IMG/VR virus record: IMGVR_UViG_3300025508_002497
Coordinates: 33,164 to 97,163 of that record
DNA from: a virus
Length of the DNA stretch: 64,000 nucleotides
Strand: one strand, 5' to 3'
A model generated the notes under the pieces. That model saw nothing but the letters and a program-made list of their open reading frames with translations. It was not told where the DNA came from and did not search any database. A program made the position numbers and the translations under genes. Each line of letters opens with the position of its first letter. Position 1 is the first letter of the stretch. Of this stretch, positions 31,548-62,478 are shown in pieces.

Positions 31548-34500
31548 TTATACAGGTATCGTGCCGCAGTCTACCTCTTCACCAATAGGCTGCTGGTTAT
31601 CCAGACATCCAATACCGTCGCCGTTATAAGTAAATACACTTCCGATCGGCTGATCATGTATTCCATCACAGTTTGAAGTACGAATGTAAAACTGGTTATC
31701 AGACTGCAAGACGTTTGGACTCCCAGAGAACAACGTACTAAGTTGAACGGTTCTGAATCGAGGCGGATCGAGTCCCTGAATAAAGTCTGCTGTTACGTCT
31801 TGACAACATTTATTTTCATCAGGATCATCATTACACCCACCATTCTCTGTGTACAAGTCTGTGATGTCGTCAAAGGGAATCGCACATCTTGTTCCATCTC
31901 CTGTACATAAAAGTATTTTAACATCTGGTTTACATGTACCCGAATCTGGGAATAGACTGAAACTATCTTCATCAAATCCTACAAATGTGTTTGCATCAGG
32001 ACATTCAAATGGACCGCCTCCAGCACTCTCCAGACAGGTGAACGGCGTGATCGTGGCGGAACTACACTGGCCACAGAAACAACATGATTCAGTATTAGCA
32101 CAATCTGTACACTCTACGGACCCTTCAGGTGCTTCGCCAGTTTCTTGTGGTGATTGAGGACCATCAACAATCACTCCCGTAATACCACAAGTATTAAGTA
32201 GATAGTTACCATTACAGTTACCTTGTTCTACATGTACACATCTAGTTTCACCAAGGAACGTAGGAAAACAGCACTTCACTAAGGTTGGTTCTGGACGATC
32301 TACACATGTTTCACATACAGTCTCTCTCGCACCCCATGTACCATTCAGTGTAGATTCACAATAAAACCTACCGATATTATATTGACATATTGGAGGTCCA
32401 GCCGAATCTGGTCTATGACAGCAGTATCCCCAGCCTTCCTGATTCATACAAGTTGCATCAACATCACATGATGTGGTCGTTACTGTATTATCACTACCCG
32501 CGGCCGCCGAAGTATTTTGTGGTCCGTTCACAGTAGAGGTTAAACAAAAACCCTCTTCTCCAATAAGCACGGCATCTGAACAATCATACTGTGCATTTTC
32601 TGTACTGAATGTACCATTCCTATTTGGACCTAGAGGTATTCCCACACAACATGTAAACTCTTGCGGTTGTTCGCATGGGCTTGAAACACAACTTTCTCCT
32701 TGAGCAAACTCTTCTTCATTAATAATAAAAGTTCCTCCAGAGGGGATAACAACACGAGAATCGTTGATCTCTACGATTTCACAGGCACTTTCATCACACA
32801 AACGACCAGTTGGAACAGCACAATCACCAATAAACCATGTTCCATAAATAATGAGGTTTCCATCGATTCGACCACTTAGTTGACACATAGCCTGGGTGGT
32901 TGGATTTTGCTCTGTTCTATAACTTTGGTTTCCATTATCTATGATTTGAAAACAACATCCAACAGGCTCATCGGGGGGACATGATTCCGTGTCTTCGTCT
33001 GCCGGACCGCTCCACACACCTCCGCCGGAGCACTTCTTTTCACATGTATATGAATGTTCATTTTGACCGTTCCCGACTGGTGTGCAACAGTTACCCAAGG
33101 GCTCTCTACCACATTCACAAGCAAGAGACTCACAGATGACATCTGGTTGTGTCCAAGTCCCGCCCTTGTTTCTGCATTCAAATAATCTCAACGGCTCACA
33201 ACCATCGTCAGAACAACACTGTCCGATAGGACAAAGACTTTCTTGTGGTTGTTCTGAACAGTCTGGACCTAAAGTTTCTCCTAGATTGCAAACTAAACGA
33301 TCTACACAACTACCTGTCTGACAGTTATAACATCCTACAGTGGGTGGATCAAATGGTTCTATAACGCTAGGTGTTCCACAAACAGAACATGCCGTTCGTG
33401 TATCACCTTCACGACATAAGACTCTGTTTTGACAATCAGTAACAATCAATCCATACAACTGGTTGTTGTTATTTCCTACACCCTTGTTGAGTCTGATTGT
33501 GGTTTCAACTCTGTCTTCTCTGGATCCTGTTCTAACGGGCAAATTATTATCACAGTTCCCGCTGTAACAAAGACCAAGATTATTTGTGCTACCAACTAGT
33601 GATTCATTTGGATTATTTGGATTATCAATACCATAAATCAATGCGGTGTATCTTGCGGTGTCGTTACTACTACCAATAGTAGAAGGTAAATCCCGTTGAC
33701 CTGCTATACATGAACCAGTGAGGGGACATAGAACTGGAACGAAACTAAACGCCAAACCACCAGGCACCTGTCTCTTATTGGGTGTTGTGGGATCACTATC
33801 ATCACTATCATTCAATAAGTTTGGATGTTCTACTTTATCTCTAAAGTTCGCATAAAGAAGATCCTTAAAATCACCGGTGATGTTCTCCTCACAGTTTGGA
33901 ACTTCGTTTCGTGTGTTCTCGATTCTAGTTCTGCATTCGTTAGAAGAGTCTTTAAAGTTTTGTACATCTTGTGGATTGAATCTACCAAAGTTTTGTACTT
34001 GGCCTTCAACATCTTCCCACCGAACATCATTACCACAGAATGGATTATGATTACTACATTCTCCCGCATAAACCTCATCGAAGTATGCTTCGTAAAGAAG
34101 AGCGGCATTTTCATCCCACGCACCACCACGCTTACACCACTTTAATGCTTCTGCCGTGTTGTCACCAATACTCATTTGGTAAGCACAGAAAGAGTTCAAA
34201 CAAGGTTCACAAGAAAAGACAGGTTTAAATGTATCTGTTGGTGTAGCGTTTGGCCAACTAGTTGCTGTTCCTGGCCAAACTTTAATATTTTCATTACAAT
34301 CTGGACTTCCTCCACATGGGAAGTAGTTATCTTCAGGCCATTCTGTTTGTTCACATGTTGATTCTGGGTTATCATTCAGACGAACTATAAAATCTTCACT
34401 GAGTCCCTTTCCACACAAACCAGTAGTGTGAGTAAAGAAACAATCATCAATAGTTTGATCATACTGACTGACACCCTCACAAACACTATCATCGTTACAT

Positions 34501-54097: not shown

Positions 54098-54634
54098 ATG
54101 TCACAAGCAGGTTTTAACAAAGTTAAGTCTACTACGAAAACTCCTAGAGAGATTTTCGACAAATATACTTTTGATATTAGTCTTATTGGTCCATCAGCCG
54201 TAGGAATATTGTCCAGTGGCGCTGGTGATTTTCATGCGTTGAGTTGCACTACTCCAACCAAAAGAATAGCAACAGACGAAAAAACTCTATGGGGCCCTGT
54301 TTACAACGTTCCATATGCTAAAGTGTTTAGTGGTGATTTTGAACTATCTTACATGTACCAACAAAACGTCCACGAATACATTCAAAGATGGAGTAATCAG
54401 ATAATATTCGGTGAAGATAGAGCAGGATATTATAATGATTTTGTTGGTAGTATTGAAATAAACTATAGTAGTCGAGACGAGACAAGTGTAACGACCTATA
54501 AATTAAAAGATGTTTTCCCTGTATCGATAAATGGGCTTGAACTTGATATGGCATCAACCAACTCATATCAAACAGGAAATGTGTCATTCTCGTTCCGTGA
54601 CTTTGATTTGTTTATAAATGGTGAAATAATATGA
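54098..54634 (+). CDS. Tail-tube-like baseplate protein (gp54 candidate)
   Basis: 178 aa; GGAG seven bases before the ATG. The C-terminal phrases VFPVSINGLELDMASTNSYQ and VSFSFRDF are characteristic of tail-tube folds. It stands directly before the chaperone and tape measure genes, the slot of the tube protein in lambda-like tails and of gp54 (tube initiator) in T4-like phages. gp19 at 15873 is the main tube subunit, so this should be an initiator or hub tube. Confidence 0.5.
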   Translation: MSQAGFNKVKSTTKTPREIFDKYTFDISLIGPSAVGILSSGAGDFHALSCTTPTKRIATDEKTLWGPVYNVPYAKVFSGDFELSYMYQQNVHEYIQRWSNQIIFGEDRAGYYNDFVGSIEINYSSRDETSVTTYKLKDVFPVSINGLELDMASTNSYQTGNVSFSFRDFDLFINGEII

Positions 54635-54647
54635 AAGGATTTGGTAA

Positions 54648-55358
54648 ATGAAGTTAGTTGAAATGTTAAGGTCAGAACTGCCTGATTATAGTATAAAAGT
54701 TCCGTCAGTCGAGGATAATTTATCTTTTAGACCTTTTCTGGTTAAAGAAGAAAAGAATCTACTCTTAGTATCAGAAGAAGGAAATGAACTGGATATCATA
54801 AGGGCGATCAAAAATATTCTGATTGCTTGTTTTGATAATTTGAATCTAGACAATATATCTTTAGGTGAAGCAGAATATCTTTTTGTTAAACTACGAGAAC
54901 GTTCTGTTGGTGAGAATCTAGAACTAATCTATAGTGATGGCTCAAGTAAAAAGCCTGTAAATCTAGATCTTCGCACAATAAAAGCACCAAAGAGAACGGG
55001 ACCAAAGAAAAATACTTTTAGTGTAACAGAAAATATCACTATAAAGTTAAGAGAACTCACTCTAAATGATGTCATCAAAAATGAAATAAAAATTTGGAAT
55101 AAAGACCAAGATACTTACATCAAGATGGTAGCGTCGATGATAGACACAGTGACTATCAAAGAAGAGTCTCTTAGCGGCACAGATCTCTCACATAAAGAGA
55201 TGGTAGAGTTTGTAGAGAGCATGACAGAAACTCAGTTTGCGGCATTACTTAAATACGCCGAAAAATCACCTCAACTACATCACGCATTAGAAGTAGATGG
55301 CAATAAAATAGAAATCAGTGGGTTAAATGATTTTTTCGGTTTAGTGTCTCCCACATGA
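54648..55358 (+). CDS. gp26: Tail assembly chaperone / baseplate hub protein gp26-family
   Basis: 236 aa (T4 gp26 208). The composition and phrases (ITIKLRELTLNDVIKNEIKI, MVEFVESMTETQFA) fit the T4-baseplate family (PF12322), now compared with tail tape-measure chaperones. AGGA precedes the ATG. Near the end is a slippery heptamer TTTTTTC in the X XXY YYZ phase (55331-55337), from which the -1 frame is open to 55522. A fusion of 230 + 61 = 291 residues would be made by frameshift. The gene is followed by the tape measure. Confidence 0.65.
   Translation: MKLVEMLRSELPDYSIKVPSVEDNLSFRPFLVKEEKNLLLVSEEGNELDIIRAIKNILIACFDNLNLDNISLGEAEYLFVKLRERSVGENLELIYSDGSSKKPVNLDLRTIKAPKRTGPKKNTFSVTENITIKLRELTLNDVIKNEIKIWNKDQDTYIKMVASMIDTVTIKEESLSGTDLSHKEMVEFVESMTETQFAALLKYAEKSPQLHHALEVDGNKIEISGLNDFFGLVSPT
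55331..55337 (+). promoter_or_regulatory. Predicted -1 ribosomal frameshift site (U UUU UUC)
   Basis: Codons read GAT TTT TTC, so the heptamer T-TTT-TTC permits simultaneous -1 slippage of both tRNAs. The gp26 stop is 19 bases downstream. A possible stem follows (55354-55375; CATGAATC with GGTTCATG, one wobble pair, 6-base loop). Confidence 0.55.
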
Positions 55359-55522
55359 ATCTAGAGGGGTTCATGAAATTGGTGTTTCAACTAATGCACC
55401 ATTATAAGTATTCATACGACGACATAATGAAATGGATACCGTGGGAAAGAGATGTCTATATTTATCAGTTACAGGCTTGGTTGAAAGAAGAAGAAAAGAT
55501 TAAAGCAAAAAACAAAAGGTAA
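55355..55522 (+). CDS. Small -1 frame ORF between gp26 and tape measure (55 aa, GT-like)
   Basis: ATG at 55355 overlaps the gp26 stop (ATGA), but no ribosome site precedes it; upstream is the T-rich slippery region. The -1 frame is open from 55337, so the product may instead be a 61-residue extension of gp26. It begins MNLEGFMKLVFQLMHHYKYS and ends with a basic helix (LKEEEKIKAKNKR). By position it matches the GT extension of lambda, or T4's gene after 26. It stops two bases before the tape-measure ATG. Confidence 0.65.
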   Translation: MNLEGFMKLVFQLMHHYKYSYDDIMKWIPWERDVYIYQLQAWLKEEEKIKAKNKR

Positions 55523-55524
55523 AC

Positions 55525-57996
55525 ATGGCACAGACACCACAACAAAAACCTAAAACTGCTGAAGAAATCAAGCGAGAAAAAGAAATTCTGCGTACACAGA
55601 AGTTGATGCAGAAGTTCATTAAGGAACGTCAAAGAGACCAGAGAACTGGTTCTAGTATTGCTAATAAAAACCTGAATAAACAGAGTCTTAAAGATCTAAA
55701 GAAAACTGGGGTTCAATCTAGAAGTGCTGCTACAGAATTTGGTGCAGAAAAACCAGAAGGTTTAACTTCGGTTGTCGTTGGTACTGCCAAAGAAAAAGGT
55801 GCTGAAATCGCAGGCAATTTACCAGGCGCAGGTGTTGTTAAGTTCTTCAGAAGAAGAAACCTACAAAAGAAAGCATACGAAGAACTACAGAATAAAAGAA
55901 AAAACTTTCTAAAAATAATAAGAGAATCTGAAAAAGAAAACCCTGTAGGATATGCTAAGTTAATACAGTCCGTAAAAAACTCATACAAGGGTGATGATAA
56001 TATATCAGAAGTTCTGATTGATACCCTGATTCAAATGGGTATTACAACAAAAGAAGAACTTTTGTTGTTGCTAGATCAACTCGCCGGCGGGGCTCCAGAT
56101 GAGGCTATACAGAATGCTATTGGTGAACAACTTCAAGCAGCAGGATTTGAGGCTAAGTCAACAGGACTCTCTGGTCTTGGTATAAGTACGCCCTCTTTGG
56201 TTTCATCTAATGATAGTCCAGAAGTCAGTCCTGTAAGTGGCGGTGTAGCATCTAGTTCTTCGCCTGTACCTTCATCTGCATCTGGTCTCTCTTTAAATGT
56301 CATCGAGAAAGAACTAAAGTTACAAACGAAATCACTATCCAACATAGAAGATAGTCTCAAGATTGATAAATCGAAACAAAGAGAAGAAAAACTAGAAGAT
56401 AAGCAAGAGGAAACTCAAACTGAATCTCTAACAACTATAGCACAATCTGTCTCTGTTAAAAGTGGTGATAAAGCAAAAGAACGAGAGAATAAACTAGAAG
56501 GTGAAAGGGCTGCAAGTCTTGCTTCGGCTGGACTTGGTGGAAGTCTAGATCTCCCAGATATTGGTGGAGATGGAGAAGGTGGAGATGGTGATGGTGGAAT
56601 AATAGGAACCATCTTTAGTAATGTTATGGGAGCATTAGGAATCAGCCTCACCGGCGGCCTGGGCATCAGCGGCTTTATCAAGGAAAAAGTCAAGAGTGTT
56701 TTGGGTTTTGGTAAGGGTAAAACACCCACACCTTCAGTCACACCTCCACGCACACCCTCAACTCCTCCTCCAATGCCAGGTGGTGCGCCGGCACCTCCTC
56801 CCCCAGCGCCTACCACAGCACCGAAACCAAGAGGGTTCTTTGGTAGAATGTTTGATCGAGCAAAGGGTGCGATTAAAACAGGAAAAGATTTTGTTGGTCG
56901 TGGATTCTCTGCTGCAAAGAATGTCGTCGGTAGTGGAATTTCTGCCGCAAAGAATCTAGCAACTGGACCTGCGATGAAGGCACTTAAAAAGCAAGCAGGA
57001 CCAATACTAAAGGCTATTGGTAAAAAACTACCAATCATTGGTCCTGCTATCTCAGGATTGATTTCTCTTATTGATATTAATACTATCAAAAATGATCCAT
57101 CTCTATCTGTTAAAGAGAAAAAAGAAGCGATAGGTAAATCTCTAGGTGCAGCATTGGGTATGGCTTTGGGATCATTAGGAGGAGCGGCACTTGGTACTTT
57201 GATTCCCGTCCCCATAGTAGGAACCCTCGCGGGATCCTTCGCTGGTGGATATCTTGGCGACTATATTGGTAGTAGTCTTGCTGGTTGGGTCGGTGGAGAA
57301 AATGTGTATAATGTGCTAGAAAAGATTCCCGTTCTCGGTAGTATCATTGGCCTAGACGAAGAAGAAACTCCATCTATAACTCCAGCAAATGTCAATAGTT
57401 CTGAGTTATCACCAAATACGAATGAACAAAGTATGATGTCTTCGGGTGATGTTTCCAACCTATCCACAACACCACAAACAGGACCAATGGTAGGTACGGG
57501 AAGTGCTACACCTAGAACATCGTCCAGTAGTCAGGATATAGCAGCACAACGCAAAGCCAGTTTCAGAGCCAGAGAGGATCTTAAGTCTAAAATGGGAGTA
57601 AGCACTCTCCCGCCAGGTGTTGTTACAGATGTAAAACCAACAGGTGATGGTTATACCGCTACAGCAACTTTCAATCCAGCAACGGCGGAAGCAGCGAGTA
57701 GAATAAGTGAATCATTAAGTAGTTCTAATGGATCTGCTGGTGGTGAAGAGATAGCAGGAAGACGAGATCTATCGATGAACACCTCCAGTCAGATTGATCG
57801 CTCGACTAGAAATGAAGCAGGTATGTCCTCATCTGGTTCCGATGGTAATACAAACATAGTTGCTCCATCATCTACATCAACTACTAATAATAACAACACA
57901 TTTAGTAGCGTATCAATGTCACAAGAGGAAGCATCATTCATGGCATCTCAAATGGTAAACCGTGGATCTAGATTCTCTGCTGCTAGGTTTGGATAA
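55525..57996 (+). CDS. gp29: Tail tape measure / baseplate hub protein gp29-like
   Basis: 823 aa (T4 gp29 590). A charged, helical N-terminal third (residues 1-200) precedes Ser-rich segments, a Pro-rich stretch (TPPRTPSTPPPMPGG, about 404-418) and Ala/Gly hydrophobic segments between about 505 and 620 (KSLGAALGMALGSLGGAALG, LIPVPIVGTLAGSFAGGYLG) that could insert in the host membrane at DNA entry. A low-complexity Ser/Asn/Thr tail ends the protein. Length suggests a longer tail than T4's. The ATG follows the small ORF after two bases; the weak site AAAGGTAAAC precedes it. Confidence 0.8.
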   Translation: MAQTPQQKPKTAEEIKREKEILRTQKLMQKFIKERQRDQRTGSSIANKNLNKQSLKDLKKTGVQSRSAATEFGAEKPEGLTSVVVGTAKEKGAEIAGNLPGAGVVKFFRRRNLQKKAYEELQNKRKNFLKIIRESEKENPVGYAKLIQSVKNSYKGDDNISEVLIDTLIQMGITTKEELLLLLDQLAGGAPDEAIQNAIGEQLQAAGFEAKSTGLSGLGISTPSLVSSNDSPEVSPVSGGVASSSSPVPSSASGLSLNVIEKELKLQTKSLSNIEDSLKIDKSKQREEKLEDKQEETQTESLTTIAQSVSVKSGDKAKERENKLEGERAASLASAGLGGSLDLPDIGGDGEGGDGDGGIIGTIFSNVMGALGISLTGGLGISGFIKEKVKSVLGFGKGKTPTPSVTPPRTPSTPPPMPGGAPAPPPPAPTTAPKPRGFFGRMFDRAKGAIKTGKDFVGRGFSAAKNVVGSGISAAKNLATGPAMKALKKQAGPILKAIGKKLPIIGPAISGLISLIDINTIKNDPSLSVKEKKEAIGKSLGAALGMALGSLGGAALGTLIPVPIVGTLAGSFAGGYLGDYIGSSLAGWVGGENVYNVLEKIPVLGSIIGLDEEETPSITPANVNSSELSPNTNEQSMMSSGDVSNLSTTPQTGPMVGTGSATPRTSSSSQDIAAQRKASFRAREDLKSKMGVSTLPPGVVTDVKPTGDGYTATATFNPATAEAASRISESLSSSNGSAGGEEIAGRRDLSMNTSSQIDRSTRNEAGMSSSGSDGNTNIVAPSSTSTTNNNNTFSSVSMSQEEASFMASQMVNRGSRFSAARFG

Positions 57997-59561: not shown

Positions 59562-61040
59562 ATGGCTGATAACATTATCGTCGCTAGCGGACCTTCAGGT
59601 GCCACATATAATATGGCTACAGATGACGGGTTCGGTGTTAGTGCAGACGCACAAGTTCAAATCATCAAACCCGTATTTGGTGACACCACCACTTCAACTC
59701 GCGTATCAAATAACAATCCTATGCCTGTTCAGTTGTTCTCTGGATACTCCGGAGGATCAACTGCATCTATTATAGAAGATGGTGAGTTGAAAGTCAAGGG
59801 AACATTCAACATCGGTAACTCGATGGCTGTTTACGGAAGCACCGCAGCATACCTCAAGGTAATCGTTGCTGGTGGCGTAACGGGAACTTCGGGTGCTACA
59901 GGTGTTATTGGTTCTGCTGGTAATCCAGCAGTATACTCTGCCGTAGAAGTTACTGGAGCGGTACAGGGTATCTCTGGTGGACAAGCACTCGCTGTGTCTG
60001 CCACTGATCTTGATATTCGCAACCTAACTGGCGGAACAATAGGCTACACAGGATCTACTCTATCTGATTATGTGGCTGTTCAAGGAATCTCTGGTGGAAT
60101 GGCAGTTTCCGTATCTGCCACTGATCTTGATATTCGTAACTTAACTGCCACTGATGTTGTCACTGTGGTTGGTACTACTGCCTCTAACGTGGGAGTCACT
60201 GGAACCGTTACTGCCATTGCAACTGATCTTGACATACGGGATCTCGCAGCAGGAACGGACTCTGTAGCGGTATATAACTCTGCTGGAGGTACGACCCTCC
60301 CAGTCGATCTCTACGCAGCAGGGACCGCTCTAGGAGTCTCTGGAGACGCTCTGAAGGTCGCGTTCGATAGTGTCACTGGAGTTACGTTCTCAGTCAATGT
60401 AGCAAGCGATATCGGGGTCTCTAACACCGCTGGAACCACCCTAGCAGTCGAGGGTAGAGCAGGAATGGTCCCTGTAACGGTCCAAGGAGAAGGTGCGGGA
60501 GACTCGGTTGTCGTCTCGGCCACCGATCTTGATATTCGTGATCTAACTGCCTCTGATCAAGTTACAGTGGTCGGTGATCTAGTGACTCACGGTGCCACTA
60601 CTGCCGCTCAGATTACACAAGCCAATCAAAAGATTGGCACTCTCAACAACACTGTATCTGGAGTTGGTGCTAAGGTAGACACCGCAAACACTTCACTAAC
60701 GACACTCTCTGATTCTGTAGTAACAGTAGGAAACGATAAACTAGTGAAGACTAGTATGGATCGAGTTACTCCTCCTAGTCAGATTTATGTTGCCACTGTT
60801 AAGGTTTCTGGTGCTGGTAAACCTCTTGCTTCAGCAACACTACAAAATGGTGTGACGATTAAATCTTCTTCTAGTAATATAGGAAGTATTTTTGTGGGTG
60901 CAACTTCTCTTGTGAATAGCACAAGTAATGGTTTCCCCCTTCTTCCTGGCGAAGAGTTATTCATAAGCATCTTAGATCCATCCAAGATCTTTGTTCGCAC
61001 AGATTCCAGATCATCTACAATCCATGTAATAGGTTCTTGA
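59562..61040 (+). CDS. Repeat-containing virion structural protein (492 aa)
   Basis: CGGAG lies just before the ATG. A conserved-looking N-terminus (FGVSADAQVQIIKPVFGDTT) precedes beta repeats; the phrase ATDLDIR[ND]L occurs four times (residues ~146, 185, 222, 319), twice preceded by VQGISGG. A Thr/Ser-rich helix follows, then a C-terminal domain that ends STIHVIGS. The style is that of head- or tail-decoration fibres of marine phages. Whether it lies on the capsid is inference. Confidence 0.6.
   Translation: MADNIIVASGPSGATYNMATDDGFGVSADAQVQIIKPVFGDTTTSTRVSNNNPMPVQLFSGYSGGSTASIIEDGELKVKGTFNIGNSMAVYGSTAAYLKVIVAGGVTGTSGATGVIGSAGNPAVYSAVEVTGAVQGISGGQALAVSATDLDIRNLTGGTIGYTGSTLSDYVAVQGISGGMAVSVSATDLDIRNLTATDVVTVVGTTASNVGVTGTVTAIATDLDIRDLAAGTDSVAVYNSAGGTTLPVDLYAAGTALGVSGDALKVAFDSVTGVTFSVNVASDIGVSNTAGTTLAVEGRAGMVPVTVQGEGAGDSVVVSATDLDIRDLTASDQVTVVGDLVTHGATTAAQITQANQKIGTLNNTVSGVGAKVDTANTSLTTLSDSVVTVGNDKLVKTSMDRVTPPSQIYVATVKVSGAGKPLASATLQNGVTIKSSSSNIGSIFVGATSLVNSTSNGFPLLPGEELFISILDPSKIFVRTDSRSSTIHVIGS
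59997..60538 (+). repeat. Direct repeats coding ATDLDIR in the 492-aa protein
   Basis: A 23-base unit TCTGCCACTGATCTTGATATTCG is exact at 59997-60019 and 60114-60136 and diverged at 60516-60538, with a shorter relative near 60217. Local duplication inside the gene is clear. Confidence 0.85.
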
Positions 61041-61041
61041 T

Positions 61042-62478
61042 ATGATAAGAAGACCAAAGAGAACTTCTACTGCAAATAAAAAAGCAGTAGAGACGAGTGA
61101 TAATCTGATTCGACAAAATAGTGCAACTGTATATGGACTATACTTTGCCTCATCGAATACTGACTTTCTTTTAGATGAAAAGAAGACTCGTTTCTCTTTG
61201 CGTCCTAGTGTAGTTGTAAAGCCTGATAGACAAACTGTAATGTTTGACTACTCGCAGGTCACTGGAGATGAAGCATCAATCTTTGATGGCTTCTTCCGAG
61301 GACTTAGTGCTGGTGCTACGCTAACACTAGATGGTGGTATTGAGTCCACCTGCAATTTTATCAATGAAGTTACTGGTGTTCCACTAACCAATTTCGCAGA
61401 CACCTACACGATCTCAACTGTTGATGTTTCAAAGAAAATCTTAGTGGCGACTAAAGGCACTACTATAACATCAACAACTGCTTCTGTGTTTGATGGTAGA
61501 TACTTCATCGATCTACCCCAGTGGACTAAAACTCAAACGAATGAAGACTCCACTTCAATCAGTAAAATCTTAAACCTACTTCCAAGTCAGTCTATCAGTC
61601 ACTTGGGTGTTGTACCTGGCTCTGTCTTAGAGTTTGCAAAGACCAGTAAGAATAATAGTCGATATACAGTAGAAAGCATCTATACTCAAAATGGTATTGA
61701 ATGTATTGATGTAACAGAACAAGTAGTTCAAGAAGATGCCTCTGAAGAGCAGGTTATTGTTTCTGTTTATGGAGAAGAGCCTCCTGTATCAGAATCTTCT
61801 TCTTATGAACCTGTTCTTTATGTAACAACAGGTGCCTTAGGAGGGGATTGTGAACCGCCCATCTACGGACCAATGCCGACTCCTATGACTGGAAAACCAT
61901 TTAAAGACTGGTTAAAGAGAGACATGGAGTGTTGTAAGTGTCTTGTCTATGCAGAGGCTGAGTGCAATGACGATCAATGTCAAATATGTAACGCATGGGT
62001 CATATGGAATCGAAGAAGAGATAGAGTTCCAGGCGGAGCAATCCCACCAGATGACGGCACCGGAAGAGATGAAGACAGTTATTGTGATATGGCAAGATTG
62101 CGTAATAGATTTTCTGGTGGATGGGGAGCAAAAAAATTCAATGAATGTTTCTGCAAGACCACAGATAATTCTTTAGAAAAAAGATGTATAAAATCAGCAG
62201 AAAAGATCTGTAATCAAATTGGTCACTCAAACTATCGTGGTATGGAAGATCCAACAGGAGGGGCGAACTACTTCTTTAGAGACGGAGCCGTTCCGGGGTG
62301 GATGGACTGTAATGTTCAAGCAGGTCACTGTACCAAGGTCACAAATAAAAAATGTGGTTCTTGTGGAAACGTTTTTTACAAATGCGATATAGTGCCTAAA
62401 CCATGTGATGAGTTAGGAAAGAAACCTGGCGGTGGTGAGGATGTTGAGCCAGACGATACTCCCGTCGTTCCCGCTTGA
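61042..62478 (+). CDS. Virion-associated hypothetical protein with Cys-rich C-terminal half
   Basis: 478 aa; starts one base after the preceding stop region. The N-terminal ~270 residues (NLIRQNSATVYGLYFASSNT, FDYSQVTGDEASIFDG) are beta-type and look structural. The C-terminal half carries at least 20 cysteines in patterns such as MECCKCLVYAEAECNDDQCQ, EKRCIKSAEKIC and KKCGSCGNVFYKC, reminiscent of secreted disulphide-rich domains but different from the ACC...GG module. Function unknown. Its stop abuts the stop of the convergent SET gene (TGATCA shared). Confidence 0.55.
   Translation: MIRRPKRTSTANKKAVETSDNLIRQNSATVYGLYFASSNTDFLLDEKKTRFSLRPSVVVKPDRQTVMFDYSQVTGDEASIFDGFFRGLSAGATLTLDGGIESTCNFINEVTGVPLTNFADTYTISTVDVSKKILVATKGTTITSTTASVFDGRYFIDLPQWTKTQTNEDSTSISKILNLLPSQSISHLGVVPGSVLEFAKTSKNNSRYTVESIYTQNGIECIDVTEQVVQEDASEEQVIVSVYGEEPPVSESSSYEPVLYVTTGALGGDCEPPIYGPMPTPMTGKPFKDWLKRDMECCKCLVYAEAECNDDQCQICNAWVIWNRRRDRVPGGAIPPDDGTGRDEDSYCDMARLRNRFSGGWGAKKFNECFCKTTDNSLEKRCIKSAEKICNQIGHSNYRGMEDPTGGANYFFRDGAVPGWMDCNVQAGHCTKVTNKKCGSCGNVFYKCDIVPKPCDELGKKPGGGEDVEPDDTPVVPA

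Follow-up and report, generated by a model that had tools for sequence, protein, structure and literature searches.

A conserved slippery heptamer and an open -1 frame predict a programmed frameshift that joins the gp26-family tail chaperone to a gp51 domain in T4-like phages

Phage lambda (G/GT) and HK97-type phages encode a short tail chaperone and a -1-extended form of it between tube-type and tape-measure genes. The lambda G/GT chaperone model was summarised in a 2016 review, which described G-T frameshifting as widely conserved among long-tailed phages "except T4" (PMC5009743). For T4-like phages, the papers on PRFect (PMC10885494) and on phage Adele (PMC12846349) credit Vladimirov, Gautam & Davidson (2022, Virology 566:9-15) with identifying the gp26/gp51 chaperones and with the two-gene solution, and the Adele paper also credits them with poly-T -1 signals in the TAC-N genes of these phages. 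As represented in these citing papers, the 2022 study appears to have already published the outline of the frameshift described here. In the TAC locus of Adele, whose families (Vandenendeviridae/Andersonviridae) differ from that of the phage analysed here, a -1 shift occurs at a poly-T GTTTTT near the TAC-N end, and the -1 frame is without a stop across genomes (PMC12846349). T4 gp51 was reported to be required yet absent from the particle (PMC3004832), and the gp51 of cyanophages and vibriophage was described as being without the first ~200 residues (Sullivan et al. 2010, PMC3037559).

We analysed a window of 64,000 nucleotides of virus DNA (positions 33,164 to 97,163 of IMG/VR record IMGVR_UViG_3300025508_002497), in which T4-like genes for the sheath, terminase, portal, major head protein, ssDNA-binding protein, head closure, tube cap and wedge were present. 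One gp26 copy was found in the 97,163-base record that contains the window, and the gene occurred at 100% identity on four other metagenome contigs (L001-L004). The gp26-family ORF (54648-55358, + strand, as are all features below; 236 aa) corresponds to the short chaperone form (G-like, TAC-N) and matched PF12322 (E=3.4e-44) and phrog_150 (E=6.5e-46). Its AlphaFold model had a pLDDT of 87, and in a Foldseek search of the PDB the HK97 tail chaperone 2ob9 ranked second, at a level that was not significant (E=0.37, TM (target) 0.40); PDB sequence searches found no homologue. No sequence homology to the lambda G/GT or HK97-type proteins was found, and the slippery site differs from theirs, being T_TTT_TTN here.

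Upstream of gp26, a tail-tube-like ORF (54098-54634, 178 aa) matched phrog_45 (E=2.4e-16). Its counterparts at the same place in relatives are annotated as gp54 or tail tube initiator and, going by this position, the ORF is probably gp54, the tube initiator. Downstream, the 823-aa ORF at 55525-57996 is presumed to encode the tape measure, on the basis of its position and one match, of 27 aa only, to the equivalently placed S-SM1 gene; BLAST comparison with the corresponding KVP40 ORF gave no match, and a Pfam search did not find the T4 tape-measure domain. The earlier note had likened this gene order to that of lambda, a comparison in which the tube-like gene is confirmed by its phrog_45 match and the tape measure enters only by position and the one short match. 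Farther along the same strand, the ORFs at 59562-61040 (492 aa) and 61042-62478 (478 aa) had no PHROG match, and the former holds a repeated motif like VSATDLDIRNLT.

Read in the gp26 frame, the codons at 55329-55337 are GAT TTT TTC, and direct reading confirmed at 55331-55337 the slippery heptamer T_TTT_TTC that the earlier note had pointed out, formed on the gp26 codons TTT TTC. From 55331 the -1 frame is open through the gp26 stop to a stop ending at 55522. The ORF coordinates agree with the 291-aa fusion (230 + 61 aa) that had been proposed, and the small ORF indeed ends two bases before the 823-aa ORF, which starts at 55525. The extension (55337-55522, 61 aa plus stop) matched phrog_634, the T4 gp51 profile annotated as "baseplate hub assembly catalyst" (E=1.3e-18), over the C-terminal half of the profile only. 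Judged by this profile match, the small -1 ORF is the C-terminal domain of gp51, an assignment absent from the earlier note. Taken with the comparisons below, this arrangement indicates that a programmed -1 frameshift very probably yields a gp26-gp51 fusion alongside gp26.

Relatives were gathered by gp26, by gp51 motifs excluding the heptamer, and from annotated phages; a search with the locus by distant blastn against phages gave no match, and the relatives came from protein searches. The sample comprised 149 sequences with a recognisable gp51 domain, the window included, and removal of near-duplicates at 85% identity gave a non-redundant set of 102 loci. Two loci that were broken off at the heptamer site (L011 and L047) were left out of the counts. 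The gp51 sequence overlapped gp26 in the -1 frame in 146 of the 149 sequences and in the +1 frame in none, and it was a continuous single gene in the other three. An in-phase T_TTT_TTN lay at the overlap in 145 of the 146 two-ORF loci (101/102 non-redundant), and it was retained in 34/34 loci thinned to <68% identity as well as, in the same phase, in all 62 non-redundant loci found by gp51 motifs only. Elsewhere in gp26 the same in-phase heptamer occurred 7 times per 22,732 codons, and the chance expectation within ten codons was about 0.3%, as against the 101 of 102 observed. The programmed -1 frameshift that had been read from the window is supported by these 62 loci, none of which shows what the earlier note had named as refuting it, a retained ORF with the heptamer lost or the ORFs in other frames. 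The sole exception among the 146 loci (L038) has G_TTT_TTT near the gp26 stop, resembling the GTTTTT motif of Adele and its relatives. Two loci missed by the gp51 profile (L136 and L137) showed GAT TTT TTT/TTC and an open -1 frame on direct reading.

The heptamer was found in cyanophages, Vibrio phages KVP40 and nt-1, Pelagibacter phage HTVC008M, Sinorhizobium and Rhizobium phages, Pseudomonas phage pf16, and Ochrobactrum and Acidovorax phages, and likewise, by direct reading, in a Stenotrophomonas phage and an Acinetobacter phage. In the window, T6 runs (T/A) were depleted (51 seen vs 87 expected from dinucleotide shuffles). A T6 run by itself carries no meaning here; what exceeds chance is the in-phase conservation.

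This conservation could in principle be a by-product of a Phe-Phe/Leu motif kept for the protein in AT-rich genomes, with the overlap reflecting gene packing. A Phe near the gp26 end is itself conserved and the phages are AT-rich, but codon choice among synonyms is far more strictly fixed here than in the rest of the gene: the first slip codon was TTT in 102/102 loci, compared with 30% TTC among Phe codons elsewhere, and the codon before it ended in T in 101/102. Moreover, T4 and Salmonella phage STP4-a keep two Phe near the gp26 end and spell them TTC TTT, with no heptamer. We regard a protein motif as having a negligible probability of being the explanation. Slippage of RNA polymerase at the T run, with the fusion translated from mRNAs that have lost or gained a U, would suit the homopolymer of 6 to 8 T that is present at the site in all loci. 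However, most runs are just 6 T, whereas bacterial slippage has been described for about 9 (PMC5009743), and the run begins at codon position 3 in 101/102 loci, although phase should be irrelevant to the polymerase; elsewhere in gp26, runs of at least T6 begin mostly at position 1 (19/26). Polymerase slippage is thus extremely improbable.

In most database records gp51 appears as a CDS of its own, and in the window phage an ATG at 55355, where the gp51 domain begins, opens a 55-aa ORF; gp51 might be a separate small gene with its own start codon. However, the first 12 codons of the -1 frame include no ATG, GTG or TTG in 34 of the 102 non-redundant loci, and the gp51 domain is already conserved within that start-less stretch. 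Where starts are available, the ribosome-site energy upstream of them falls short of that at randomly chosen positions in the gene (-1.2 vs -2.1 kcal/mol). A separate gene would also leave the fixed in-phase heptamer unexplained, and we consider this reading very unlikely. On these counts an independent gp51 start, transcriptional slippage and protein constraint were each rejected, and we return to the programmed -1 frameshift.

The E. coli dnaX cassette, with its spacing of an upstream SD-like element from a homopolymeric heptamer followed by a 3' stem-loop, has a layout like that of the gp26 locus. The gene is unrelated and its heptamer is poly-A, whereas the heptamer here is poly-T and the stimulators would be those suggested by synonymous-site statistics. 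Family-wide, a stretch about 15 nt before the heptamer paired with the anti-Shine-Dalgarno sequence at -7.0 kcal/mol, vs -5.2 kcal/mol under the synonymous null (z about -13, and -6 across the 34 loci that diverge most; the z-values of both stimulators are optimistic, as they count related loci as independent). The Glu codon in this element was GAG in 60/80 cases, vs 29% elsewhere. In relatives L008-L152 an SD-like GGAGGG/GAGGG is preserved through synonymous codon choice and is placed like a dnaX-type 5' stimulator. The pairing energy was -6.4 kcal/mol where a -1-frame start is absent and -7.3 kcal/mol where one is present; because the element is nearly as strong without such a start, a role as the gp51 ribosome-binding site is unlikely. 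The synonymous-site statistics suggest instead that the element may act as a 5' stimulator of the shift. The corresponding site in the window phage is an 8-nt stretch at 55316-55323, starting 15 nt before the heptamer, and is weak at -4.3 kcal/mol against the family mean of about -7. No report of the SD-like element was found in the literature searched, in which Vladimirov et al. (2022) is represented by its citing papers.

RNAalifold gave no consensus structure on the ungapped family alignment, and downstream structure was tested against a synonymous-codon null instead of an RNAalifold consensus. The 40 nt from heptamer position +12 folded more stably than this null across the family (z about -16 to -18, likewise optimistic). 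The favoured helix register, +12/+42, had at least 6 pairs in only 27/102 loci, and there is no single conserved downstream fold. The hairpins between +12 and +52 change sequence between relatives. In the window phage, the stem-loop at 55354-55375 that had been put forward as following the site does exist (9 bp including G-U, 4-nt loop), but it is not unusually stable, with z about -1 (-0.35 to -1.15 with dinucleotide shuffles, -1.0 with synonymous recoding). It begins 16 nt past the site, compared with 5 nt for the recurrent family helix, and it is kept in L005 and not in L006. Alone it is not significant; it is possibly a weak 3' stimulator.

Three observations count against the frameshift. 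Neither of the presumed stimulators is strong in the window phage, the ATG at 55355 offers gp51 a possible start of its own there, and in E. coli A_AAA_AAG was shiftier than heptamers made of U runs (PMC5009743).

The T4 branch has a different arrangement of the same two proteins. In T4 (L051), Aeromonas phage 25 and Salmonella phage STP4-a, gp26 and gp51 are separate genes, and the heptamer is absent from gp26 in all three; past T4 gp26, the -1 frame enters another gene. T4 makes the long form from its separate full-length gene 51, whereas the window phage has only the overlapping arrangement. The statement that such a frameshift is not standard for T4-type phages thus holds, among the phages examined, only for T4 and the Aeromonas and Salmonella phages; the frameshift layout is the rule in rhizobiophages, vibriophages, cyanophages, a pelagiphage and others. 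In T4 gp51 (249 aa), residues 12-185 match gp26 and residues 199-244 match the -1 extension, and by these matches T4 gp51 resembles a single-gene version of the frameshift product, a pre-fused gp26 plus extension. In T4, L145 and L151, gp51 is paralogous to gp26 and carries the extension as an in-frame fusion, and the gp26 next to it has no heptamer. We propose that the ~200 residues "missing" from the cyanophage and vibriophage gp51 are missing because they are supplied by gp26 via the frameshift.

What can be read directly from the sequences is the heptamer and its phase, the conservation of the -1 ORF and its identity with the C-terminus of T4 gp51, and the T4 counterpart. Because the heptamer and the -1 frame are conserved and the T4 branch, without the heptamer, has a full-length gp51, we favour a frameshift of the lambda G/GT type. 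From this we infer the shift itself and its efficiency, as well as a stimulatory effect of the 5' and 3' elements. Most ribosomes would translate gp26 to its stop and produce the 236-aa short chaperone, and a minority would move back by one base at U_UUU_UUC, read past the stop and produce the gp26-gp51 fusion of 291 aa. On the model of lambda G/GT, from which the partners are taken, both forms would coat the tape-measure protein through their common part, the long form would bring in tube subunits through its gp51 extension, and a fixed ratio of the short and long forms would govern tail assembly.

With regard to the history of the superfamily, we find the case evenly balanced that the frameshift is the older state among T4-like phages, carried by a cassette of SD-like element, T_TTT_TTN and 3' hairpin, that the T4 branch swapped in a fused duplicate gp51, and that the gp51 of cyanophages and vibriophages is not truncated. 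The frameshift reading would correct the annotation of gp51 in many phage records, in which it is now a separate small gene or is not listed. The upstream SD-like element provides a defined target for reporter assays. Two phage groups would make the same short and long pair, one by frameshift and the other by a second gene, and this contrast would permit a test of whether the ratio of the short and long forms matters.
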